Assembly: GCF_030348945.1 (NCBI RefSeq)
Contig: NZ_JAUCEN010000002.1
Location: 4,092,001 to 4,156,000 of the forward strand
Source: Peribacillus sp. ACCC06369
GTDB taxonomy: Bacteria; Bacillota; Bacilli; Bacillales; DSM-1321
Length of the DNA stretch: 64,000 nt
Reading direction: 5' to 3'
A program made the position numbers and the translations under genes. Below are positions 15,809-28,224 of the stretch, one piece after another. Position 1 is the first letter of the stretch, and the number at the start of each line of letters is the position of its first letter. The notes beneath the pieces were generated by a model. The model did no database searches, was not told the DNA's origin, and saw nothing but the letters and a program-made list of their open reading frames with translations.

Positions 15809-16654
15809 TTAGACGACTAAATGAATCTCATTGCCTGATGGATCTGTTACGACATAAAACTCCTCTTTTTCCGTAACGACAGTTCCTATTCCTTTCAGTC
15901 GTTCCATCACTTTATCTCTCGCTTCATCATTTGCAAAAACGAGGGTATACCAGTTTAGTCCCACACTATTTTCCTTAGGAGCTGGGGCGCCTACACCATT
16001 CCAAATGTTCAATCCGATGTGATGATGATATCCCCCGGTGGAAGTAAAGAGTGCTCCTGCGTACCGATTCACAACAGTAAACCCAAGACCTTGCATGTAA
16101 AACTCCTCCGTGTTACGTAAATCTGACACATGCAAATGTATATGTCCCATTAAGGTACCTGCAGGCATTACGCTCCATTCTCCATTACTTTCTTCCAGAA
16201 GGTCATTCCCATCCAACGGATCCGTGCCCATCGCGACCTCCCCATTGGCCCACTTCCAATCAGTCGATGGCCGGTCAGAGTAAACTTCAATGCCATTGCC
16301 ATCAGGATCGGTAATGTACAGCGCTTCACTCACTTCATGATCCGCCGCTCCAAATGGATATTTCGTTTGAAGTAAATGTCGTAAGAAAATTGATAAGTCT
16401 GCACGGGTCGGCAGTAAAAGGGCAAAGTGATATAAGCCCGTCGTCCGCCCTTCTTTTGGAATCACATCAGCAGGCTGTTCAAGTGTAAGCAACGGGGTTT
16501 TTCCGTCAGTCGTTAAAACAGCTTGCCTTTCATTTTTCTTCAATACTTGAAGGCCGATGATATCTTGATAAAACGTGATGGCTTTATCTAAATCCAAAAC
16601 ATTTATACTGACTTCGCCAACAAAAGTAACTGGTTTTTGATGAAAATTCTTCAT
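15809..16654 (-). CDS. catE: Catechol-2,3-dioxygenase-like VOC protein
   Basis: Two-module vicinal oxygen chelate protein of 281 residues, equivalent in size to B. subtilis CatE (about 285). Module 1 begins near residue 8 (VGEVSINVLDLDKAITFYQDI) and holds the metal-site strands TGLYHFALLLP and DPDGNGIEVYSD. Module 2 begins near 168 (MGHIHLHVSDLRNTEEFYMQ) and has GGYHHHIGLNIW and DPSGNEIHLVV. Metal ligands are expected from His168-region, His-rich HHH and the terminal Glu. It would ring-cleave catechols. It begins 4 bp after catD and precedes the azoreductase. Confidence 0.88.
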   Translation of the reverse strand: MKNFHQKPVTFVGEVSINVLDLDKAITFYQDIIGLQVLKKNERQAVLTTDGKTPLLTLEQPADVIPKEGRTTGLYHFALLLPTRADLSIFLRHLLQTKYPFGAADHEVSEALYITDPDGNGIEVYSDRPSTDWKWANGEVAMGTDPLDGNDLLEESNGEWSVMPAGTLMGHIHLHVSDLRNTEEFYMQGLGFTVVNRYAGALFTSTGGYHHHIGLNIWNGVGAPAPKENSVGLNWYTLVFANDEARDKVMERLKGIGTVVTEKEEFYVVTDPSGNEIHLVV

Positions 16655-16658
16655 AATG

Positions 16659-17063
16659 TCACTTCCCTTTTTTATTGAAAATCATGTTATCCAAAGAGAG
16701 GGCTATGCGGTTTGTACACGCTAGATAGACTGACATGGCTAGTAGTGCCAAGTCCAGTTCGTAGCCCGCTGCTTGCCCGTTTCCAAGAAAACCAGCAGAT
16801 AATTTAGCCGTAAAAATCGCCCCCGCCATAATGACCGCAAACAGGACGGAAACGATTCGTGTTCCCAAACCAAGTATAACCGCAAGTCCACCGATTAATT
16901 CGATACCTGCAACGATGTAAGCCATGAACCCAGGAATACCAAGACTATCAAAAAATCCCGCCGTGTTTCCTATGCCCCCTTGAAACTTTGAAATGCCGTG
17001 AATGAAAAAGGTAAGACCTAAAATCACCCTTAAAAAAACTTGACCTGCTTCATTTTTATTCAT
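16659..17063 (-). CDS. catD: DoxX family membrane protein of the catechol-detoxification operon
   Basis: Four-helix membrane protein of 134 residues (CatD is about 135). It begins MNKNEAGQVFLRVILGLTFF and has the DoxX signature FFIHGISKFQGGIGN near residue 20, then GIELIGGLAVILGLGTRI near 55. Its biochemical role is unknown; it is paired with catE in B. subtilis, where DUF24/MarR regulators (CatR, YodB) control it. AAAAGGAGAG precedes the ATG. It is the first gene of the operon. Confidence 0.9.
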   Translation of the reverse strand: MNKNEAGQVFLRVILGLTFFIHGISKFQGGIGNTAGFFDSLGIPGFMAYIVAGIELIGGLAVILGLGTRIVSVLFAVIMAGAIFTAKLSAGFLGNGQAAGYELDLALLAMSVYLACTNRIALSLDNMIFNKKGK

Positions 17064-17087
17064 GTATGAACTCTCCTTTTTTATCGG

Positions 17088-17132
17088 TTACTTTATGTAA
17101 GTAATTATATTTAAATAAGTTTATAATGTCAA
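17088..17132 (-). promoter_or_regulatory. catD promoter with overlapping operator
   Basis: On the minus strand TTGACA (17127-17132), a 17-bp spacer and TATAAT (17104-17109) form a fully consensus sigma-A promoter. The perfect dyad TTACTT-N5-AAGTAA (17088-17104) touches the -10 box. A repressor bound there would block transcription of a promoter that is otherwise very strong; a CatR/YodB-type quinone-sensing repressor is inferred from the genes controlled. Confidence 0.88.
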
Positions 17133-17189
17133 GTAAGTTTATTGGAATATAAAAAGAAACGAATTGCCGAAGCAACTCGTTCCTTGGTA

Positions 17190-18026
17190 TCACGGTTTAA
17201 ATGTGTAATAAATGGTTGAATTGATGATGAAAGAGTCCGCAATGGTTCTCCCGACTTCCTCACATGCCACTTTACGGAACTTTGTCGCATCAACGGGCTC
17301 ATATAATAATTGATGAATGCCGTCCACTGACCGTATTGCGACAGTTGCGTCAGGCTTCGTCTGAAATATCCTTTCCAGGATTTCTTCTTTATTGGGGACC
17401 AGGCTGGCAATCCATACTAGATCAAACTCCGCATAATCATGAAGGGCGCCATCATTCAAAATATAATCTGAAGTCCCTTCGTTATCCAGTTCTTGGACGA
17501 TGCGCCTGCCAAGTGAATGGGCTTGTTCATCTATATCGAGACAAGTCATTTTTGCATCCAACTCCCGTTGAAGCAGTAACGGGCTTAATGGCAGAGGACC
17601 CGTTCCTACAAATGCAAATGACTGAATATCTTTTTTCACTTTTTTCAATTCATTGACTTCCGTTTTGATCAGTTCTTTGTAGTTATCCCAATAAATGAAC
17701 GAACGGAAGTCATCCAGGGAGTTCACCCTGCCAATAAATAACTTGGCATAATGATCCTCCATCAAGGTTTCAGCAATCGTCAGCTTATCAAGCATGGTAC
17801 CCCGAATCGATCGGATTTCATCATGGTTGAGAATTTCTTCAGCCATTTGCGGGTCCAATGGTTTCGAAATCATCGAAACCAGTTCGGATAAAACACGATT
17901 GATTATTTCGTTATTTGGTGATAAATCATCTTCTTTGAGTAAGGTTTTATATGTATCCATATATGTATGAATGATTTTTTCCTGTTTTCTAGACCATTTG
18001 ATCGTTTTCAAGGCGAACACTCCCAT
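17190..18026 (-). CDS. Nicotianamine synthase-like (CntL-type) metallophore enzyme
   Basis: About 278 residues with an N-terminal helical part and a C-terminal SAM-binding domain. The NAS signature FVGTGPLPLSPLLL is at about 139-152, the acidic strand end CLDID at about 162-166 and DLVWIASLVPNKEE near 205. NAS-family enzymes transfer an aminobutyrate group from SAM to an amino group; CntL of staphylopine synthesis acts on D-histidine. The substrate here is unknown. The gene overlaps the end of the MATE exporter gene on the same strand, and the Opp/Nik-type importer operon lies upstream, so metallophore synthesis is inferred. Start: ATG 18026 lacks a clear Shine-Dalgarno; a TTG at 18011 has GGGAGTG nearby and is an alternative. 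No opine dehydrogenase is adjacent. Confidence 0.82.
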   Translation of the reverse strand: MGVFALKTIKWSRKQEKIIHTYMDTYKTLLKEDDLSPNNEIINRVLSELVSMISKPLDPQMAEEILNHDEIRSIRGTMLDKLTIAETLMEDHYAKLFIGRVNSLDDFRSFIYWDNYKELIKTEVNELKKVKKDIQSFAFVGTGPLPLSPLLLQRELDAKMTCLDIDEQAHSLGRRIVQELDNEGTSDYILNDGALHDYAEFDLVWIASLVPNKEEILERIFQTKPDATVAIRSVDGIHQLLYEPVDATKFRKVACEEVGRTIADSFIINSTIYYTFKP

Positions 18027-19324
18027 TAGGAAATAATTTTTTACTTAACTGTGGAATATACAATGCTAAAAATACGGAACGTCCTAAGCTGAATACAGTA
18101 AAGGCCAGCCATAATGCATGGTTTTGATATGCCGGCAAAAAGATATACAGTGTGATCACAAAGGCGATCAAGGAATAAATCATCGAGTTACGAATCGGGG
18201 CAGCTTCTGTTGCCCCAGTAAAAACTCCGTAGAAAACGATGCCTACGCTAGCCGATAGAGGAAACAAAATAAGCCAGATCCCATAAACGTTTGCAAGCTC
18301 AATGACACTCGGTATCCGTGTGAAAAGCGAAAGGATGGACTCACTGAATAAATGGTAACTGGCAGCAATCATCAGGGAAGATATTCCCCCCACTGCAACG
18401 ACAGGCTCAGGGTCTTCTTATATAAGCGCTTATCTCCCGCACCAATCGCTTTTCCAACAAGTATGCTCGAAGCATTTGCGAACCCGTCAAAGAAGTAAGC
18501 CATCATATAGTGAATTTGGATGAGAACGGCATTCGCTGCCAATATCTCCGTTCCATACGAGGCTCCCTTTGCGGTGAAGATATTAAAAACGGTCAACAGG
18601 CAAAGCGTCCTGATGAATAAATCCCGATTCACCGACATCATTTTCTTAATGGATGACGGATCGAACATCTCTTTCAAAGGAGGCAATTCCATTTGATGTG
18701 GCGACGCCTTCAAAATAATGATTAGTCCAATGAAAAAGGCCGTCACTTCCGAAAGGAGTGTCGCTATGGCCACCCCCGGCACACCCCATTCGAATATATG
18801 GACAAATAACAAATCCAGGGCAATGTTCATGAGGTTCATGAACACCTGTAACACTAGCGAAACCTTGATCTTGGACATCCCCATCAGCCATCCCAATATG
18901 ACGTAATTCATCAAAGTGAATGGGATTCCCCAAATTCTAATGCCGAAGTATTCAGCCGCATATCCGCGTACATCAGCATCCGGATTCATCAGTGTTAAGG
19001 AAACTTGTTCAATTGGCCCCTGAAGAAGGATGAAACCCATCCCTACAACAATCGCCAGGATAAATGGCCTAAAAAGGCTAACACACCTTGCTTTTCGTCG
19101 TCTGCCCCAAGTGCTTGTGCAGCAAATCCCGAAGTACTCACCCGCAAAAATCCAAACAGCCAATACAAGGTATTGAAAATGATCGTACCTATAGCAACGC
19201 CACCCAAATAAGCAGGGTTTGGTAACTGACCCACAACGGCGGTGTCCACCGCACCTATTAATGGCGTCGTTATCGTCGATATGGTCAGAGGAATGGCCAA
19301 GGCCAAATATGATCGATGGTTCAC
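17989..19324 (-). pseudogene. MATE family exporter interrupted by two frameshifts
   Basis: Three overlapping reading frames together spell one multidrug/MATE-type transporter of about 445 residues. Segment 1 (GTG 19324 to about 19075) begins MNHRSYLALAIPLTISTITT and reaches GADDEKQGVLAF. Segment 2 (to about 18380) resumes with RPFILAIVVGMGF and ends KKTLSLSLQWG. Segment 3 (to 17989) resumes GGISSLMIAASYH. Each join needs one missing base restored, in or next to a run of five T and a run of six G. A strong AAGGGGGAAG precedes the GTG, and the last segment overlaps the NAS-like gene, so this is the expected exporter of that locus. Either the gene is inactivated or the runs were misread in sequencing. 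Confidence 0.8.
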
Positions 19325-19353
19325 TTTACTTCCCCCTTAGTCCCTTTTAATCG

Positions 19354-19368
19354 AAATCGTTACGATTT
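19354..19368. promoter_or_regulatory. Palindromic site ahead of the MATE-NAS unit
   Basis: AAATCGT-T-ACGATTT, a perfect 7-1-7 palindrome 30 bp upstream of the MATE start. It shares the AAATCGT and ACGATTT ends of Zur boxes but lacks the six central bases. The same 15-mer recurs at 24734. Confidence 0.6.
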
Positions 19369-19393
19369 AAAACCTATAAGTGGTATAACCACT

Positions 19394-20158
19394 TTATTCA
19401 AACATCGAAATCAGCTCTTTCGTGTATGAATGGCGATCGTTGCAAAAGAGATGTTCGTTTTCAAAAGAATCCACAATAACACCCCCTTTCATCACCATGA
19501 TCCGTTGGCTCATCTCCTGTACTGCCGACAAATCATGGGAAATGAAAAGGTAAGAAATGTCCAAAGTCTCCCTCAGCTCGCCTAACAATTTCAGCACCGC
19601 CGCTTGTGACAGCACGTCAAGGCTTGAAGTCGGTTCATCCAATATAATGAGGGCCGGTTCAATGCTGATTGCGCGCGCAATGGTCACACGCTGCTTTTGT
19701 CCGCCGCTTAGTTCATGCGGGTAACGTTCAGCTAAATCCTTTGGAAGCTCCACGGTTTCCAGCAGCTGTCCGATAAAGTTCCCTTCACTTGTATACGTAA
19801 AATGTTTCATATTGACCTGGCTGCCATATTGAAGATATGGATCCATTAGTGAATCTTTTATCCTTAGTTTTGGATTCAAAGCTGAAGCAGGATTTTGCAA
19901 AACGGCCTGGATATTCTTGCGGTATGGGTTTAAACTGCGTTCACTTTTATTTTGCAGCGCGGTTCCTTCAAATAGGATGCTTCCTCGGTCAATAGATTCT
20001 ATCTGAAGGATGATTCTTGCCAATGTGCTTTTTCCGCACCCGCTCTCTCCCACTAATCCCAGGCATTCCTTCCTTTCGATGCTAAAATTCACGTTCCTCA
20101 GTATTTCTACTCCATTATCATAGGTTTTATGGACATTTCGTACGTCTATTAAACTCAT
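19394..20158 (-). CDS. ABC importer ATPase, NikE/CntF/OppF type
   Basis: Nucleotide-binding subunit of 254 residues. Walker A GESGCGKST is near residue 37, the signature LSGGQKQRVTIARA near 147, Walker B ALIILDEPTSSLD near 168 and the switch histidine in YLFISHDLS near 203. It pairs with the preceding ATPase; the two genes overlap by 4 bp. It is the last gene of the five-gene importer operon. Family members power uptake of oligopeptides, nickel or opine metallophores. Given the NAS-like gene next door, metal-metallophore import is the likely role. Confidence 0.9.
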   Translation of the reverse strand: MSLIDVRNVHKTYDNGVEILRNVNFSIERKECLGLVGESGCGKSTLARIILQIESIDRGSILFEGTALQNKSERSLNPYRKNIQAVLQNPASALNPKLRIKDSLMDPYLQYGSQVNMKHFTYTSEGNFIGQLLETVELPKDLAERYPHELSGGQKQRVTIARAISIEPALIILDEPTSSLDVLSQAAVLKLLGELRETLDISYLFISHDLSAVQEMSQRIMVMKGGVIVDSFENEHLFCNDRHSYTKELISMFE

Positions 20159-20952
20159 CCCGACACTCCTTCAAGCTTAAATGGACTTCTTCTCAGTGTA
20201 GGCGATGATTGAATCAGTCTTTTCGTGTAAGTATGCTGTGGATGATTCAAAACCTCATCCTTATCACCGGTTTCAATAATGGCTCCGTCTTTCATGACCG
20301 CAATGCGGTCCGCATATTTCCTAACATGACGTAAATCATGGGTGATGAACAAGATTGCACATCCGGTTTCTTTTTGGAGCCTTGATAACAGCTGCAAGAC
20401 CTTAAAGGAAGATACACTGTCCAAGGCAGTGGTCGGTTCATCAGCTATCAATATATCCGGTTCAAGCAGCATGGCTATTGAAATGGATACACGTTGAAGC
20501 TGCCCACCGCTTAATTGAAAAGGGTATCTACTGTAGATACCTTCATTCAGGCCCACCGATATGAGCGCCTTGACCGCTTGCTTGCGCCTTGCCTTTTTGG
20601 AAAGGTTCAAATGTGTCCGCTGATATTCCTCGAAATGTTGACCGATGGTATGGAACGGTGTGAATGAACCCTGGTAATCTTGAAAAATATAAGCCAGGCG
20701 CTTTCCGCGAAAATGCCGGATTTCAGAAGTGGATAGTGTTAAAAGATTCTTTTCCCCATACCATATTTCCCCCTTTGCTTGGAGATTCGGTGCAAGCAGC
20801 TGGCCGATTGCCATGGCCGTCATGCTTTTGCCGCTCCCACTTTGTCCGACAAGTGCGAACCACTCACCTTCATGCACATCCAATGAAAGATCCTTGACGA
20901 TATGATTTTGCTTTCCCATGATATTTAGATGTCTTACGGATAAAATGCTCAT
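20155..20952 (-). CDS. ABC importer ATPase, NikD/CntD/OppD type
   Basis: Nucleotide-binding subunit of 265 residues with Walker A GQSGSGKS near residue 36, signature LSGGQLQRVSIS near 149, Walker B ILIADEPTTALD near 171 and switch FITHDLRHV near 206. The C-terminal tail (RLIQSSPTLRRSP) resembles the short OppD-type extension, but no extra iron-sulphur cysteines are seen. It overlaps both neighbours by 4 bp, so translation of the importer is tightly coupled. Confidence 0.9.
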   Translation of the reverse strand: MSILSVRHLNIMGKQNHIVKDLSLDVHEGEWFALVGQSGSGKSMTAMAIGQLLAPNLQAKGEIWYGEKNLLTLSTSEIRHFRGKRLAYIFQDYQGSFTPFHTIGQHFEEYQRTHLNLSKKARRKQAVKALISVGLNEGIYSRYPFQLSGGQLQRVSISIAMLLEPDILIADEPTTALDSVSSFKVLQLLSRLQKETGCAILFITHDLRHVRKYADRIAVMKDGAIIETGDKDEVLNHPQHTYTKRLIQSSPTLRRSPFKLEGVSG

Positions 20953-21788
20953 GATTCCACCTCCTTTTTCACATCGAATGCATCGCGCAAATAATCACCG
21001 AGTATGTTGGATAAAAGGACGACAAATACGATGGCTAGCCCCGGGTAAATCATCAGTAACAGATTGGATTGAAAATATGGACGGGCATCGTTCAGCATGG
21101 CCCCCCACTCCGGTGCCGGCGGCTGCGCCCCGAGCCCAATATATGATAAGGAAGATATGAGCAAAATTATTTTCCCTAAATCGAGACTCGAAAGGACAAG
21201 CACGTTGCCGATGAGATGAGGAAATAGATGCTTCCGCATGATCCTGAATGAACTTAATCCATTGATTTTAGCGGCTGTGACATAATCCTTCTGGCGTTCA
21301 GTGATCACCGTACTTCGTACAAGCCGGGCATAATTCACCCATTTCACTAGAACGATCGCCAAAAGAAGATTTTCGATGCCTGGCCCTAATAGGCCACTCA
21401 GCACAATGGCAACAATCGTATCAGGGAATGCGAGAAACGCGTCTCCAATGCGCATGAAGATCCGATCGATCAGTCCTCCTTTAAATCCGGCAATCACCCC
21501 GAATGGGACGCCGATGATAACAGCCGCTAACAAGGATAAGAGCCCGTAGCCAACCGTCAGCTGTGCACCTAGCAGAAGGCGTGTCAATACATCACGCCCT
21601 AAATGATCCGTTCCTAATGGATGTTCCATACTTGACGGCCATAGCCTTTCTCCCAGATTGACCAATGTCGGATCATGTTTCAGGATAAGAAAGGTGTAAG
21701 CCGCAACGGTTAGGACCAAAACCATCACCGTAAATAGGAGGGTCATCCTCCACCGTCTTTTGGATTGTTTTTTGAACACTAACTCCAT
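20949..21788 (-). CDS. ABC importer permease, NikC/CntC/OppC type
   Basis: Inner-membrane subunit of 279 residues. After the first helix it has the family's GTDHLGRDVLTRLLLGAQLT motif near residue 55, five further helices, and the ATPase-contact EAA-type loop (ITERQKDYVTAAKINGLS) near 170. The C-terminal GAQPPAPEWGAMLNDARPYF near 220 is typical of the OppC/NikC branch. It overlaps the upstream permease gene by 10 bp and the downstream ATPase by 4 bp. Confidence 0.9.
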   Translation of the reverse strand: MELVFKKQSKRRWRMTLLFTVMVLVLTVAAYTFLILKHDPTLVNLGERLWPSSMEHPLGTDHLGRDVLTRLLLGAQLTVGYGLLSLLAAVIIGVPFGVIAGFKGGLIDRIFMRIGDAFLAFPDTIVAIVLSGLLGPGIENLLLAIVLVKWVNYARLVRSTVITERQKDYVTAAKINGLSSFRIMRKHLFPHLIGNVLVLSSLDLGKIILLISSLSYIGLGAQPPAPEWGAMLNDARPYFQSNLLLMIYPGLAIVFVVLLSNILGDYLRDAFDVKKEVES

Positions 21789-22735
21789 TTTCCATGCTTC
21801 CTCCCCTTCAGTCTTAGCTCCGGATTTAAATATCGATAAGATAAATCAACGGCACTATTAACCATGAATACAATGATGGCCATGATCAACAGGTACCCTT
21901 GAATGACTGGGTAATCCCGCGACCGAATCGAGTCCACGACCATCTTACCTATGCCTGGATAGGCAAAAATCACTTCGATCACCACTACACCGCCGATCAG
22001 GCTGCCAAGGCTGACACCGAATACGGTAATGACCGGGGGCAAGCTATAACGAAATGCATGGACAAAGAATATCCGGATTTCTGAAATCCCCCTTGACCTG
22101 GCAGCCCTGATGAAATCTTGACTGAGGGAATCAATCAAACTCGAACGCAGCAACCGGACGTACACACTAGTGATGGCCAGCCCCAACGTGACAGACGGCA
22201 GAATCAAAGAACGGAATCCGTCCCTTCCCATTGTTGGAAGCGCCCCCCATCGCACCGCAAATAAATCTATCATTAGCAGTCCCAGCCAAAAGCTAGGAAT
22301 GGCTGCCCCCAACAAAGAAACGGTACGGCTTAATTGATCAATCCAGCTTCCTCTGTACAATGCGGCAAACGACCCTAAAGGAATGGCTATACCAAGCATG
22401 ACAAGCAATGCCCCAACCGTCAGCTCAAGTGTAGCAGGCAGTCCGCCCATGATCATTTCCATAACGGGCTGATTCGTAAGATAGGAATTCCCGAAATCCA
22501 ATTGGATAAAGTCCGCAAACCAATCGCCATATTGCACGATCAGCGGATCATTGAACCCCAATTCTTCACGAAGCTCATTGACTTGCTCGTTTGTGATTGA
22601 AACATCATCCACTTGAAGTATCGAAAGAACCGGGTCCCCCGGAGCAAGCCGAACAAAAAGGAAAGAGATAAATGTAATCACAAGGACAAAAATCACGACC
22701 TCAATAAATCGCCGGAACAAGATGCGGAACATCAC
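21779..22735 (-). CDS. ABC importer permease, NikB/CntB/OppB type
   Basis: Inner-membrane subunit of 318 residues. The N-terminal helix is followed by FVRLAPGDPVLSILQ near residue 27, the family's PGDP motif. Six helices in total and the ATPase-contact loop DFIRAARSRGISE near 205 are visible, ending with AYPGIGKMVVDSIRSRDYPV near 255. It overlaps the binding-protein gene by 4 bp. Specificity cannot be read from the permease alone. Confidence 0.9.
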   Translation of the reverse strand: MMFRILFRRFIEVVIFVLVITFISFLFVRLAPGDPVLSILQVDDVSITNEQVNELREELGFNDPLIVQYGDWFADFIQLDFGNSYLTNQPVMEMIMGGLPATLELTVGALLVMLGIAIPLGSFAALYRGSWIDQLSRTVSLLGAAIPSFWLGLLMIDLFAVRWGALPTMGRDGFRSLILPSVTLGLAITSVYVRLLRSSLIDSLSQDFIRAARSRGISEIRIFFVHAFRYSLPPVITVFGVSLGSLIGGVVVIEVIFAYPGIGKMVVDSIRSRDYPVIQGYLLIMAIIVFMVNSAVDLSYRYLNPELRLKGRKHGKWS

Positions 22736-24261
22736 TTCACATCCAGTTCATTCGTCAGCATGTAGTATTCGCTTCTCGAAGTGATCCAGTTTTCAACTTT
22801 ATCGGCGTCATAGGCAACAAGTGTATTCGGGTGTAAAATGAACGAATTATACACTTGTTCATCCACATACATCGCAATATCTTCAGCTAAATCCGAGCGC
22901 TTCTCCTGTCCGACCGTTACATTCAGCTTGTCAATAAGGGACGTCAGGTGATCATCATCGGCCCCGCTGAAATTCAAAGCTCCCTTTGGATGATAAGTTG
23001 CATTTAAATAATAACCGGCATCCCCGCGCGGAGCCGTTAAATTGCTGTAGGTCGTTAAATCCCAATCCCGATTGGCAGCCATATACTCTTCCGGGATTTC
23101 TATTTGCTTGATTTTCACATCAATCCCCAACTGGCCGGCATCCGATTGAAAAACTTGGGCAATTAACGGCAGGTCGGCACGAGAACTGTATGTAAGAAGT
23201 GTAAACGTTAACGGTTTGCCGTCTTTTTGCATGACACCATTCACTTTCTTATATCCCGCCTGATCAAGAAATCCCTTAGCCGCTTCCATTCCATTCTCTT
23301 TTTTCGGATAGTCCGGAGCAAACGAGAAAGTGGATGGAAAAGGCCCTGTTGCCACTTCTGCATGACCATGTAAAATCGTATCCGCAATCGAAGAGCGGTC
23401 GATCAAGGCATCTATCGCCTTTCGGACGTGTATGTCCTGCAGGGGTTTACGCTCCAAATTCATCGTCATTTGATGGACACGGAAAGTCGATGTGGATTCC
23501 ACCTTCACACCATCTATCGCTTCTAAATTTTCCAGGCTTTCCACTTCCGGACGGAAAACAATATCTGCGTCTCCCGATTCCAGGGCAAGAGATCGTGCAT
23601 TGGCATCTTCATTAAATGAAAACCTGGCTTTCTCAAGCTTAGCGGATCCATCCCAGTAAGACTCATACCGGATTAGATCAACAGCCGTACCTGGTATGAA
23701 CTTCGAAACGGCAAATGGCCCTGTTCCTATCGGCCTGTTTATGTAGTCACGTTCCGTTACATCAATAATCGATGTATTTGGATGGACCAATTCAGATGGA
23801 AACTCCGGAAAGGGAACCTTTATCTTAATGGTCAACTCATTTCCATTCGCTTCAATCGATTCAATGCGCAAGGCATTCTTGATCGCTAAACTATCTTTCA
23901 TCGCCCGCTCCAAGGATGCCTTCACCGCTTTGCCATCCATAGGCTTTCCATTCTGAAAAGTCACACCCTCCCTCAACTCGAAATTCCATAATTGACCATC
24001 CTTGCTATCCCAGCTTTTCGCCAGCCAAGGTTCGATAGTCAAATCCTCATCATTGAGATGCACCAATGTCTCAGTGATCCCAGCCCTAAGTGACACATAA
24101 CTGGTATCAACATTCGGATCAAGCGAGCTAGTTGCGAAATTAAAAAGTAAATTCACTTCCTTCTTCCCACTCCCTTGCTCTTTCGCAGACTCGGTCGAGC
24201 AAGCAGCCAAGAGCAAGAATGAGAGAAATAGAACAAAAATCGATTTATATTTTCTGAACAT
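22732..24261 (-). CDS. Nickel/metallophore-type substrate-binding lipoprotein
   Basis: SBP_bac_5 family binding protein of about 509 residues. The N-terminus MFRKYKSIFVLFLSFLLLAAC is a lipoprotein signal with lipobox LAAC. NLLFNFATSSLDPNVDTSYV and the PWLAKSWDSKDGQLWNFELR segment are family hallmarks. NikA, CntA and peptide-binding proteins share this fold; NikA/CntA-like affinity for metal complexes is inferred from the locus. The ATG at 24261 has GGAGG 9 bases upstream and is preferred to the in-frame ATG at 24276. A near-perfect Zur box lies 40 bp upstream, implying repression by zinc-loaded Zur. Confidence 0.9.
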   Translation of the reverse strand: MFRKYKSIFVLFLSFLLLAACSTESAKEQGSGKKEVNLLFNFATSSLDPNVDTSYVSLRAGITETLVHLNDEDLTIEPWLAKSWDSKDGQLWNFELREGVTFQNGKPMDGKAVKASLERAMKDSLAIKNALRIESIEANGNELTIKIKVPFPEFPSELVHPNTSIIDVTERDYINRPIGTGPFAVSKFIPGTAVDLIRYESYWDGSAKLEKARFSFNEDANARSLALESGDADIVFRPEVESLENLEAIDGVKVESTSTFRVHQMTMNLERKPLQDIHVRKAIDALIDRSSIADTILHGHAEVATGPFPSTFSFAPDYPKKENGMEAAKGFLDQAGYKKVNGVMQKDGKPLTFTLLTYSSRADLPLIAQVFQSDAGQLGIDVKIKQIEIPEEYMAANRDWDLTTYSNLTAPRGDAGYYLNATYHPKGALNFSGADDDHLTSLIDKLNVTVGQEKRSDLAEDIAMYVDEQVYNSFILHPNTLVAYDADKVENWITSRSEYYMLTNELDVK

Positions 24262-24300
24262 GATATATTCCTCCATTACTTCATATTTATTTATGCTGTA

Positions 24301-24321
24301 AAATCGTATTGATTACGATTT
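24301..24321. promoter_or_regulatory. Zur box upstream of the metallophore importer operon
   Basis: Half-sites AAATCGTATT and ATTACGATTT separated by one G agree with the B. subtilis Zur consensus (AAATCGTAAT-N-ATTACGATTT) at 20 of 21 positions. It lies 40 bp upstream of the binding-protein start codon, where a repressor would overlap the promoter region. Confidence 0.88.
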
Positions 24322-24379
24322 ACACCTTAGTCATGACGAACCAATCTAATGTTACCTCAATCAGAAATCATCCTATATA

Positions 24380-24620
24380 CACGCACCGTACTCGGAATAC
24401 ATACGCACTTACGAGTAAATGCTCTAAACTCACGAGTAACAGCTCTATATCTCGGCAATAGACGCAAAATCTTGTGTAATATCAACCAACTTAACTAAAA
24501 CACCCATTCACGAGTAAATCAGCCAAACTTACGAGTATTTGCTCTAAACTCGAGATTAAACACCAAACTCTCGAGTAACAGCTCTCTAAATCTTGTTAAT
24601 AGGCCAGATTCTTGAGCAAT
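24380..24620. repeat. Decayed ACGAGTAA repeat tract
   Basis: Copies of ACGAGTAA and relatives (ACGAGTATT, CTCGAGTAAC, CTCGAGATTAA) recur at about 20-40 bp spacing, separated by AAACT or CAGCTCT-like spacers. This is the reverse complement of the TTACTCGT core of the arrays at 43430-44165 and 59985-60480, but with far more divergence. No gene is seen between 24322 and 24931. Confidence 0.65.
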
Positions 24621-24733
24621 TGCACGAATCGCTTGTAATACGGCACATATCCTCTTATGTAAAATCTAAATCTTAAACTCAAGCAAGTGCTATATCCTCC
24701 AACATTAAAAAGCTCCTTCCATCAAATAAATCA

Positions 24734-24748
24734 AAATCGTTACGATTT
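24734..24748. promoter_or_regulatory. Second copy of the 7-1-7 palindrome
   Basis: Identical to the 15-mer at 19354-19368 (AAATCGT-T-ACGATTT). It lies about 470 bp upstream of the importer operon. Confidence 0.5.
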
Positions 24749-24799
24749 AGACTTTGTGAAAATTAAAAAGTGACTCTTGTCTTGACTGTCTTTCATTAT

Positions 24800-24820
24800 A
24801 AAACGTAATGATTACTATTA
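24800..24820. promoter_or_regulatory. Diverged Zur-like box
   Basis: Half-sites AAAACGTAAT and ATTACTATTA flank a G and match the Zur consensus at 18 of 21 positions. It could be a second, weaker operator far upstream of the importer genes. Confidence 0.5.
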
Positions 24821-24931
24821 ACAAGGTTTTTTTTCATTTTTGTTAATCGGCTTGCACTTCTTCCTTTGAGCTTCAAAATTTTGCTGCCATATCGGCTAAG
24901 AGGTACCTTCTTTAATTGGCTTTTGATTAAG

Positions 24932-24963
24932 AAAAAACTCCTGAAAAATAAATTTCAGGAGTT
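24932..24963 (-). terminator. Terminator of the mannitol genes
   Basis: Perfect 11-bp stem AACTCCTGAAA / TTTCAGGAGTT followed on the minus strand by TTTTC, 20 bp beyond the mtlD stop. Confidence 0.85.
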
Positions 24964-24982
24964 CTTCGGATCTTGTATATTT

Positions 24983-26128
24983 TTATTTTTTCAATTCGTT
25001 GTAATGATTGATAACTATTTTGGTTATTTCGCTATTTTCGTCCAATCCGCTAACCTCATTAAGTGCGTTAGCTACACCATTTTCTTTGATCATCGTTTGC
25101 AGTTTAAGCGCTTCTTCATCTTCATTAAAATCAAAGAGTAAAGCGGCTGCTATCGCCTTCGCCAGATTAGTATAGGAAAGACCGGCTTTCTTAGCTTCTA
25201 CGGCAGGACGGACGAGTCGGTCGTTCGGCCCGAGCTTACGAAGCGGTGAACGGCCCACTCTATTCACTGAGTCATTTAGGTAGGAATTTTTAAATCGATT
25301 AATGATTTTTTCGATATACTGCTTATGCTCATCTGCGTCCAACCCGTATTGCTTTATTAAATATTCTCCCGTTTCCCCTAAGGTTTTCTTGACTTGCTCT
25401 ACAATGCCTTCGTCTTCCAAAGACTGGTCAATCGTCGATTTGTTATTTTTGAGATAACCTAGGTAAGCAATGACGGCATGTCCTGTATTAACGGTAAACA
25501 GTTTTCTCTCAATGAACGGAGCTAGTTCTTTTACAATGGTCATCCCCTCGACGGCAGGAATGCTTTCATTCGTTTCAACGACCCATTCATAATAAGGTTC
25601 CACCAATACATCTAGTGATCCCTCGTTATTTTGTAAAGGAACGATCCGGTCGACAGCTGAATTAAAGAAGAATACTTTTCCAGCTAGGTTTTCCTTCGTT
25701 TCTTGATCCATGTTTTCGAGAATGTACCCTTCTAAAAGGTCTGTTGCCGATATTTGGTTTTCACAAGCAATCACATATAGTTTTTCATCGGTTTCCTTCA
25801 CTCTTGAAGCTAACCCTTTTGCAATTAAAGGAGCGATATGAGGCAAAATATTCGGACCGATTGCAGTGGTAAGGTAGGTTGCCTCTGATATTGCCTTAAT
25901 GATTTCCTCTTCCTGCTTTAAGCTGTTTAAACCTGAAACATTTTTTACAGTGACCGATTCTTGTTGATCAGTTGCCAATTTGACTTGATATTGTTTTTTA
26001 ACATTTAACTGATCGATGATTTGTTCAGCTATATCTACAAATGTCACATGATATCCAGATTGTGAAAAGAGTGCTCCGATAAATCCTCTTCCAATGTTCC
26101 CTGCTCCAAAATGTACTGCTTGTTTCAT
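24983..26128 (-). CDS. mtlD: Mannitol-1-phosphate 5-dehydrogenase
   Basis: NAD-dependent oxidation of mannitol 1-phosphate to fructose 6-phosphate. About 381 residues, normal for MtlD. The Rossmann motif HFGAGNIGRGFIG is at residues 5-17, the polyol dehydrogenase segment ACENQISATDLL near 127, and the catalytic stretch VNTGHAVIAYLGYLK near 215 with its conserved Lys and His. AAAGGGA lies 8 bases before the ATG at 26128; an in-frame ATG at 26137 is less well placed. It starts 5 bp after the mtlR stop. Confidence 0.95.
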   Translation of the reverse strand: MKQAVHFGAGNIGRGFIGALFSQSGYHVTFVDIAEQIIDQLNVKKQYQVKLATDQQESVTVKNVSGLNSLKQEEEIIKAISEATYLTTAIGPNILPHIAPLIAKGLASRVKETDEKLYVIACENQISATDLLEGYILENMDQETKENLAGKVFFFNSAVDRIVPLQNNEGSLDVLVEPYYEWVVETNESIPAVEGMTIVKELAPFIERKLFTVNTGHAVIAYLGYLKNNKSTIDQSLEDEGIVEQVKKTLGETGEYLIKQYGLDADEHKQYIEKIINRFKNSYLNDSVNRVGRSPLRKLGPNDRLVRPAVEAKKAGLSYTNLAKAIAAALLFDFNEDEEALKLQTMIKENGVANALNEVSGLDENSEITKIVINHYNELKK

Positions 26129-26133
26129 TACAA

Positions 26134-28224
26134 TCATCCCTTTATCAAGTTAGTATATAAATAGTCCAAAAATATGGCTTCCAGTCTTCTGCTGATCATT
26201 TCTTCGTCCGTAGATGAAAAAATCATGATGGATTCATTACTTTCAATTAAGCTTGAACTTATTAAGCTGACGATTTCCTGCTGCTTCACACTCAATTCTT
26301 CAGGCGCCAGCATCAGCAGCAAATTTTTCATATGGACTTCATTTCCATCCATACCTTTTACCAGACAATAATCCTCCAAGTGGGCGACCTGGAATATCAG
26401 CTCTTTCACATTCTTATGTCTGGTATGAAATAGGCCCATTCCAGTGCCAGGAATGCCTAATCCGCCTTTTTTTTCCCGCTCGTTCAGTGATCGGATCACA
26501 TCATCCGCACCAATTAGCAATTCTTCCTTTTCAGCCAGCCTGACCATTTCTTCGATGATCCGCGGATGTCCTTTCATGTGCGGAAACCGATAAAACCGTA
26601 AGTTATCCGTGATCGACTCGATGCTCTGCTGGACATCTTTCAATTCCTGCAGCACTTCTTTCAATTCGCCATCCTCTTTTTTCGGCTGGGAATCCTTATG
26701 GCCAGTATGACTGCCATAACGCTTATTCTTCGTGAAGTTTTCAATATTCTTCCTTAAATAATTCCTGATGTTCAATATATTCTCTTCACTCAAAAGAGGG
26801 GATACGAGGATATAATCCATATCGATATATGGAAGCCGAACGGTAGAAATGATCACATCATAGTTATTCAGGCTGCCCTGCTGCTGGATATCCTTGATCG
26901 TCTTGATTTCTACAGTCTGGATTTCCATGATTTCTTTTTTGATCCGGCTTGCAAGCATCTTCGACGTGCCTATACCTGTCGGACAAACGATGAGTGCCCT
27001 TATTGATATTTCTTCCTCCCGCAACACTAAGGCAGATCCGAAATGAAGGACGATGAAGGCTATTTCATCTTCAGGAAAATCTTTGATTTCTTTGAATCCC
27101 TTTTCCAGACTGGTCTTCACTGCTAAAAAGAGAACCGGATACTTTCGTTTAATATCTTCCGTTAAGGGATTATACAATCCCATTTCCTGTTTGATCCGGA
27201 AGAGCGATGGTTCCATATGGGCAAGGAGCCCTTGATACAATGGGAAATCCTTGGTCAAATCGATTTGCAGTTGAGCAGAAACATCTTTTATCAAGTTCCT
27301 TATCAGCTGGCCCAGCACCACACTGTCATAGGGAACGGCATCCGCCGCATGAAGCTTGGAACCTTTAAGGATGGCCGCAAGGTAGCTAATATCATCGATG
27401 GTAAAAGAGACTTCCAGCATGGCACTGAGTTCCTTGCCTATTTTATTCATGAGATTATTTTCATCCGAGAGTTCGCTTATTTTCTTGAAGTCCTTCTCCA
27501 AAAGAAATTGGCCTTCATTCCTTTGCAGGGTTACATAAATATGTACAATCAACCCTATATACCCGCTATCCGCCAACCGCGAATGGACACTATTAAAAGT
27601 CGAGTTCAGCACCCCATCAATAGCCAGAAGATATTCGGGATCGAAATAGTCGAGGATTTTCGCTTCTGGAAATTTTCCTTCTTGCAACAAAAATAAACTT
27701 TCAATCAGCTCTTCATTAAAGAAGTGCAAGAAATAGGCGGCCTGGGCTTTCCGTTTATTTTCTTCAGTTCCGGCAAGCTCAATTCCGACTCCCCTTTTTC
27801 TGGTAACCACGATATTAAAATTTCTTAACCACTCGGTCAGTTCGTCTAAATAGGTGGTAAGAGTGGTTATGCTTATACCTAGATCCCCCGCAAGTGCTTG
27901 AGTTTTATATGATTCCTCCTGCAGTAAAGCTAAAAGGAGATGCAACTTTCGTTCTTGTGGCGTTTGATCGATCGGATGATTACCCATCAAGTGCTGTACT
28001 AGCCGAAAGACTTGTTGATTCTTTCCATCGATGGACAGCCCTTCATGCGTATTGCGTGTTAAATGCAATTCAAAAGATTGCAGGATTTTTTCTATGGACT
28101 TCAGATCACGTTGAACCGTCCGTACACTAACATTCAGTTGTGTCGCAATGGATATGGCTGAATGTTTCCCTGAAGTTTTTATGATCAATTCTATGATTGA
28201 TTTTTCCCTTGAAGTAATATACAT
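26134..28224 (-). CDS. mtlR: Mannitol operon activator with PTS regulation domains
   Basis: BglG/MtlR-type transcriptional activator of 696 residues. Two N-terminal helix-turn-helix domains occur (about 1-65 and 90-150; VSVRTVQRDLKSIEK and GISITTLTTYLDEL). PRD1 is near 200-290 (GLIVHIYVTLQRNE), PRD2 near 300-400 (DEIAFIVLHFGSALV), an EIIB-like domain with its cysteine in ALIVCPTGIGTSK near 415 and an EIIA-like domain near 560-690 with His in MGLFHTRHK. In B. subtilis phosphorylation of these domains sets activity according to mannitol and glucose flux. It lies between mtlA and mtlD. The start has no strong Shine-Dalgarno. Confidence 0.92.
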   Translation of the reverse strand: MYITSREKSIIELIIKTSGKHSAISIATQLNVSVRTVQRDLKSIEKILQSFELHLTRNTHEGLSIDGKNQQVFRLVQHLMGNHPIDQTPQERKLHLLLALLQEESYKTQALAGDLGISITTLTTYLDELTEWLRNFNIVVTRKRGVGIELAGTEENKRKAQAAYFLHFFNEELIESLFLLQEGKFPEAKILDYFDPEYLLAIDGVLNSTFNSVHSRLADSGYIGLIVHIYVTLQRNEGQFLLEKDFKKISELSDENNLMNKIGKELSAMLEVSFTIDDISYLAAILKGSKLHAADAVPYDSVVLGQLIRNLIKDVSAQLQIDLTKDFPLYQGLLAHMEPSLFRIKQEMGLYNPLTEDIKRKYPVLFLAVKTSLEKGFKEIKDFPEDEIAFIVLHFGSALVLREEEISIRALIVCPTGIGTSKMLASRIKKEIMEIQTVEIKTIKDIQQQGSLNNYDVIISTVRLPYIDMDYILVSPLLSEENILNIRNYLRKNIENFTKNKRYGSHTGHKDSQPKKEDGELKEVLQELKDVQQSIESITDNLRFYRFPHMKGHPRIIEEMVRLAEKEELLIGADDVIRSLNEREKKGGLGIPGTGMGLFHTRHKNVKELIFQVAHLEDYCLVKGMDGNEVHMKNLLLMLAPEELSVKQQEIVSLISSSLIESNESIMIFSSTDEEMISRRLEAIFLDYLYTNLIKG

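Follow-up and report, generated by a model that had tools for sequence, protein, structure and literature searches.

A 64,000-nucleotide stretch of the genome of Peribacillus sp. ACCC06369 (5.62 Mb in total), hereafter referred to as the window, carries on its minus strand a locus that combines an Opp/Nik-type ABC importer, an exporter gene of the MATE family and a gene of the nicotianamine synthase (NAS) family. It probably represents a type of metallophore locus for zinc starvation that Peribacillus shares with some other Bacillota, and is predicted to be bound by Zur and to encode the synthesis, export and uptake of a ligand used without an opine dehydrogenase. The evidence comprises the gene content and family assignments, the conserved Zur-type boxes, the purifying selection acting on the NAS gene and the fact that the opine dehydrogenase CntM was not found in the genome.

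The importer is encoded by five minus-strand genes with successive overlaps of 4, 10, 4 and 4 bp: a substrate-binding lipoprotein of the Nik/Opp5A type (22732–24276), permeases of the Opp2B (21779–22735) and Opp2C (20949–21788) types, and two ABC ATPases (20155–20952 and 19394–20158). For the binding protein, the alternative start at 24261, chosen in an earlier sequence-only reading of this DNA, is favoured over 24276 due to its better fit to the ribosome-binding site. The binding protein matched SBP_bac_5 and exceeded the cut-off of the NCBIfam equivalog model NF045468 Opp5A_nikA (707.6 bits, cut-off 600), and the permeases exceeded those of NF045470 (434.9 bits, cut-off 350) and NF045474 (349.2 bits, cut-off 300), while the best models for the first ATPase (CntF, 273.2 bits, and CntD, 271.7 bits) and the second one (NikE, 220.7 bits) remained below their cut-offs. 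Among solved chains, the closest to the binding protein was 3t66 (714.3 bits), with lower scores for SaNikA 4ofj (255.0 bits) and for 5yh8 (100.2 bits), which we take to be CntA. The Opp/Nik-type importer recognised in the sequence-only reading was thus confirmed; by profile it belongs to nickel-type families, and uptake of a zinc–ligand complex is predicted for it.

The NAS gene (17190–18026) carries the GTGPLPLS and CLDID motifs by which it had been identified, and its product matched the Pfam family NAS (PF03059) with 101.9 bits (cut-off 27.1), while scoring far below the cut-off of the CntL equivalog model NF033601 (52.2 bits, cut-off 350). It could thus be assigned to the NAS-family aminobutyrate transferases. 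An unrelated methyltransferase, the refutation envisaged at the outset, was ruled out by a fold test favouring the fold of CntL and of the archaeal thermonicotianamine synthase (MtNAS). The two nearest proteins among 34 matches were 93% and 92% identical, the second being from Peribacillus. The ratio of nonsynonymous to synonymous substitution rates (dN/dS) between the window gene and ten relatives was in the range of 0.12–0.19, indicating purifying selection. On a tree built by a quick method and containing many long branches, the window NAS and CntL lie on different sides of a fully supported branch; the core window clade, made up of 14 sequences, does not include the NAS proteins of Halalkalibacter (L094) and Thermoflavimicrobium (L086), although L094 has the same transporter set.

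The residues at the catalytic positions, E90 and Y116, are invariant in all 20 aligned sequences. According to the available parts of Seebach et al. 2023 (PMC10248798), the catalytic residues are a glutamate (E81 in MtNAS, E77 in AtNAS1) and a tyrosine (Y106 in AtNAS1), and AtNAS1 also requires E73 and a VGMD segment (206–209), both conserved in plant NAS and different in microbial NAS-like proteins. In the window clade, a glutamate (E86) lies four residues ahead of the catalytic E90; this position, equated with E73 by the four-residue spacing in an alignment that did not contain AtNAS1, is occupied by glutamate in all 57 sequences outside the CntL and archaeal types and in none of the 11 others (seven CntL and four archaeal-type). 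The VGMD-type insert is absent from the window clade, which has LVPNK at that place, and a four-residue insert there was detected in 12 of 68 sequences, all actinobacterial. As judged from these residues, the signature is mixed, being nearer to that of true NAS than those of CntL and MtNAS are, yet incomplete. Nicotianamine itself could be proposed as the product, with a chance somewhat short of even.

The lack of genes for the opine dehydrogenase CntM and the histidine racemase CntK, first noted for the locus, was followed up at the genome level. No CntM was found in the window genome with PF10100, a search that detected CntM in seven of 43 genomes of the family, the same seven that have weak CntL-type NAS matches, and in none of 14 standard control genomes. 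A search with a Peribacillus CntK-like query, run without a positive control, gave no match in the genome. In a draw of 397 genomes from the order, 41 matched the NAS profile at E<1e-10, and eight of these matches, including a decayed remnant (G024), were of the window type (>180 bits); CntM was present in only one of the eight genomes (G041), which also has its own CntL. Of the 33 genomes with only weaker NAS matches, 32 contain CntM (G009 and G029 among them), the exception being G455, where the NAS match is a 193-codon frame. Among the 32 genomes of the named NAS loci, CntM was identified in three (once as a fragment), all Paenibacillus.

Zur-type sites were located with a 21-bp pattern, presumably representing the Zur consensus, which was run over the whole genome. 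Its sole match with 0 mismatches (24301–24321) has its core 27 bp ahead of the ATG at 24276 of the binding-protein gene. A second box (19348–19368, two mismatches) lies between the two units, with its core 26 bp ahead of the MATE start. Two distal boxes were found at 24728–24748 (two mismatches) and 24800–24820 (three mismatches, or two to the 15-bp core), the latter overlapping a promoter-like site at 24824–24795 on the minus strand; between the distal and proximal boxes, at 24403–24586, there are imperfect direct repeats, comprising a 45-nt reference copy and three further overlapping matches with 62–76% identity. Nine genome sites have at most two mismatches, three of them in this locus (24301, 19348 and 24728). 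Of the others, two precede a ZnuA gene, one precedes yciC, one precedes a permease/DUF1980 pair, one lies past yciC between genes for ribosomal proteins L33 and S14, neither of which has zinc-binding CxxC pairs, and the ninth is without a clear target gene. Three Fur-family genes are present in the genome. The occurrence of such boxes both at the locus promoters and at zinc genes of the genome suggests control by Zur.

When three mismatches were allowed, the genome yielded 39 forward and 29 reverse sites against 23 and 18 for a reversed-pattern control, so many of the three-mismatch sites must be noise. In 44 hand-chosen regions upstream of genes for the substrate-binding protein (SBP), MATE or NAS, a site with at most two mismatches was found in 35 and one with at most three in 40, compared with 0.14% and 1.9% of plain letter shuffles; since the loci are related, these regions reflect conservation, not independent events. 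Of the nine regions exceeding two mismatches, five have three, and four have five or six and lie ahead of genes taken as non-first in their units. Across 30 loci (23 of this type and seven CntM loci, 570 kb), 82 Zur-type sites were counted against 3 in one round of first-order Markov resampling; such boxes are present also at the Peribacillus CntM loci.

The order SBP, Opp2B, Opp2C, two ATPases, MATE and NAS recurs in 14 further Peribacillus genomes, where in most cases mtlD lies upstream and DoxX/VOC genes lie downstream, and is also kept in Bacillus canaveralius, in strain V3-13 and in two Anoxybacillus species. The genes are rearranged in Halalkalibacter (L094) and in Alteribacillus (L085), where a ZnuA gene adjoins. 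In L192, genes for SBP, the two permeases and MATE are accompanied by a divergent NAS gene, with no ATPase match, and in Geomicrobium (L110) MATE and NAS are divergent, with no importer within 7.5 kb. Some of the loci come from duplicate genomes (L083/L191, L094/L193, L058/L082 and L087/L161). Outside this group, NAS-family genes whose products have glutamates at both E86 and E90, and near which neither an importer nor MATE was matched, were seen in L088-L109 (Paenibacillus) and L089-L103 (alphaproteobacterial and Micavibrio metagenome-assembled genomes). A methanogen NAS gene adjoins an opposite-strand Opp/Nik-type ABC operon (L125, 9983–16060), which might represent a similar connection to uptake in archaea.

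The MATE-family exporter gene (17989–19324) lies on the same strand and belongs to MatE, as described in the sequence-only reading, but it is not intact, and in this respect the earlier account of the locus, sound as to gene families and the lack of CntM, did not hold. It consists of three pieces in different frames (19043–19324, 18372–19163 and 17989–18393), each matching MatE, with breaks near 19085 and 18390. Short homopolymer runs occur at or beside both breaks, so a sequence error is possible; however, we favour real decay, because both breaks fall in the same gene and there is none in its ten neighbours, the other genes from 15809 to 28224, which match relatives over their full length. 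Elsewhere in Peribacillus, 11 of 14 loci have an intact 445-codon MATE frame; the gene is frame-broken in L063 and internally deleted, with remnants only, in L058 and L059, and in L059 the NAS gene no longer has its usual start. For six MATE genes with an intact frame, dN/dS was 0.10–0.16. Rearranged or truncated NAS and MATE–NAS frames in three database proteins (P0029, P0033 and P0034) are further indications that the locus decays recurrently.

A binding protein at least 85% identical to that of the window was found in 19 of the 43 family genomes (in G015 as two broken pieces), and every one of the 15 Peribacillus genomes that have a window-type NAS also has the importer. In four other genomes (G014, G015, G029 and G031), the importer is kept but MATE has been lost; NAS is missing too, except that its end remains in G014 and G031. 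Retention of the importer where NAS was lost is as predicted for a shared secreted ligand; the loss of the maker and persistence of the user fit such a ligand, and are compatible also with the use of foreign ones.

Altogether, the following scheme could be proposed. Upon zinc scarcity, Zur would leave its boxes and two adjoining units, the importer genes and MATE–NAS, would be transcribed. By analogy with its family, the NAS enzyme would join aminobutyrate groups of S-adenosylmethionine to a starter amino acid or a unit derived from the same donor, giving nicotianamine or a close relative. With no opine dehydrogenase, the NAS product itself would be the ligand, which would exit through the MATE protein where its gene is intact, bind zinc outside and return as a complex via the Nik-type ABC importer. 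In the window strain, with NAS and importer intact, export may have been lost, may proceed through another exporter, or the MATE frame breaks may be sequence errors. The four relatives with the importer and without NAS and MATE would be expected users of the shared secreted ligand.

Several observations weigh against this scheme. The scores of the binding protein against NCBIfam models and solved chains are those of a nickel-binding protein. NAS persists where MATE is broken (the window and one relative) or internally deleted (two relatives), a chosen query set, used in place of full annotation, gave no MATE or Nik-type importer match within 7.5 kb of the NAS relatives found in Paenibacillus, in alphaproteobacteria and in actinobacteria, and G024 has NAS and MATE remnants without an importer. 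Among the four Peribacillus genomes that have kept the importer alone, G015 and G029 carry a CntL–CntM locus instead. The importer is also more widespread than NAS: binding-protein relatives at E<1e-90 were detected in 88 of the 397 order genomes, and of the 19 genomes outside the genus whose binding proteins are 62–66% identical, 17 have no NAS or CntL match. Among 15 importer loci without a window-type NAS (48–66% identical), hand-picked from the 88 genomes, mostly high scorers, and including one with CntL and CntM (G155), a Zur-type box was found in 13 and an adjoining MATE gene in five. In G022 (L165, 5127–12860), a Nik-type importer and MATE adjoin yciC, with two Zur-type boxes upstream of the latter, and the genome gave no NAS, CntL or CntM match.

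Because the importer is wider than NAS and importer–MATE pairs occur without it, the two transporters look like a module of their own, joined by NAS here or by CntL–CntM in L066. The module fits a metallophore role, in which the ligand would be a candidate substrate of MATE. L066 (1683–10910) is a Peribacillus opine locus containing CntL, CntM, EamA, a Nik-type importer 41–50% identical to that of the window, and part of a related MATE gene (59–70%), so the importer and exporter types are common to both types of biosynthesis. For the five importer–MATE genomes mentioned above, the NAS profile search gave no NAS or CntL match; their neighbouring genes were considered as a substitute biosynthesis and rejected, since none of the 10 proteins scanned was NAS-like or opine-type. 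Catalase-family genes lie near three of these five loci (L204, L207 and L216).

These patterns could also mean that the importer, alone or together with MATE, serves under Zur control for the general scavenging of foreign ligands, such as plant nicotianamine or the metallophores of neighbours, to which NAS was a later addition and for which MATE returns the used ligand. The boxes and MATE genes at NAS-less importer loci and the four importer-only Peribacillus genomes suit this explanation, but we consider it unlikely given the invariable presence of the importer in Peribacillus genomes with a window-type NAS, the purifying selection on NAS, and its position behind MATE in a unit preceded by a separate box. 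Still less likely, the NAS product could remain intracellular and serve as a ligand or buffer during zinc starvation, with other substrates for MATE and the importer, as many bacterial NAS relatives without such a transporter pair nearby and the broken or deleted MATE in four of 15 Peribacillus loci with NAS might suggest; the linkage of NAS, MATE and importer in several genera and the retention of the importer after NAS loss, which fits a shared ligand, argue against this.

It is improbable that the ABC operon encodes a conventional importer of nickel or peptides and lies beside NAS by chance. Although NCBIfam gives nickel-type names to the binding protein and permeases, and the nearest solved relatives are nickel-binding proteins, the best Zur-type box of the genome precedes the operon and recurs in other genera, the operon is linked to NAS and MATE, and the importer lies near znuA or yciC in other genomes. 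Finally, cntL is directly upstream of cntM in the four characterised zincophore systems covered by the available part of PMC7438024, and an opine dehydrogenase encoded elsewhere could complete the molecule to an ordinary opine zincophore. This was rejected as highly improbable, since the search that detects CntM in other family genomes did not find it in this one, and of the eight genomes in the order draw that have a window-type NAS, seven are without CntM and the eighth has its own CntL. A direct use of the NAS product, the interpretation put forward in the sequence-only reading and partly supported here, remains our preferred explanation. A bolder version, which we regard as doubtful, is that some soil Bacillaceae secrete nicotianamine as a zincophore, that the same Zur-controlled importer takes up plant nicotianamine, and that lineages drift between making, sharing and stealing it. 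Peribacillus would be a convenient test genus, as CntM-type, CntM-free, importer-only and empty genomes all occur within it.

Directly 3' of the NAS stop, a terminator-like hairpin of 14 pairs (17154–17185, minus strand) has the longest stem of the 12 terminator-like sites in the window, against 8.1 expected by shuffling. A 12/12 sigma-70-like promoter (TTGACA-17-TATAAT) precedes the DoxX gene, while promoter-like sites as a set were not above chance (15 versus 18.6 expected). Inclusion of the DoxX and VOC genes in the NAS unit was rejected on account of this hairpin and promoter. The DoxX-type small membrane gene (16659–17063), in a unit apart from NAS, matched the HvfX model weakly (46.8 bits, cut-off 80). 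No known regulatory RNA was matched at the gathering threshold in 16000–26500.

The opine zincophore clusters (cntKLM or cntLM), which specify staphylopine, bacillopaline, pseudopaline and yersinopine, likewise combine an NAS-family enzyme with transporter genes, and those of staphylopine and bacillopaline include an Opp-type importer, as does the window locus. CntK occurs in the staphylopine and bacillopaline systems only. The window locus differs from these clusters in that no CntM was found, in its NAS lying across a fully supported branch from CntL, in its binding protein being nearer to NikA than to the chains taken to be CntA, and in its MATE exporter. MatE exporters are reported in fusobacterial CntM clusters in the available part of Morey and Kehl-Fie 2020 (PMC7438024), a survey there described as seeded on CntM, so CntM-free clusters would be missed by it. 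The open papers searched, as judged by titles and the beginnings of abstracts, yielded no description of a CntM-free, Zur-controlled NAS locus; none was found on nicotianamine with Geobacillus, and by their titles those with Peribacillus were on other subjects; the comparison also drew on parts of PMC7438024, Dirick et al. 2025 (PMC12454661), a Zur review (PMC6103462) and a primer (PMC13142891). The Staphylococcus aureus NikA/Opp5A nickel importer is alike in that the binding protein and permeases of the window exceed the same NCBIfam cut-offs, and the window locus differs from it in its Zur-type boxes and its linkage to NAS and MATE. MtNAS has glycine where the window clade has E86, whereas the plant and fungal nicotianamine synthases share with that clade the catalytic tyrosine and the glutamate four residues before the catalytic one (E73/E77 in AtNAS1); the window clade lacks their VGMD segment, and the window NAS is linked to transporter genes. 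Characterised bacterial NAS-type zincophores end with an opine dehydrogenase step, an enzyme not found for the window locus; if its NAS product is used without further modification, this chemistry would yield a working zincophore even in its simplest form, and the same chelator may be common to plants and the bacteria associated with them.

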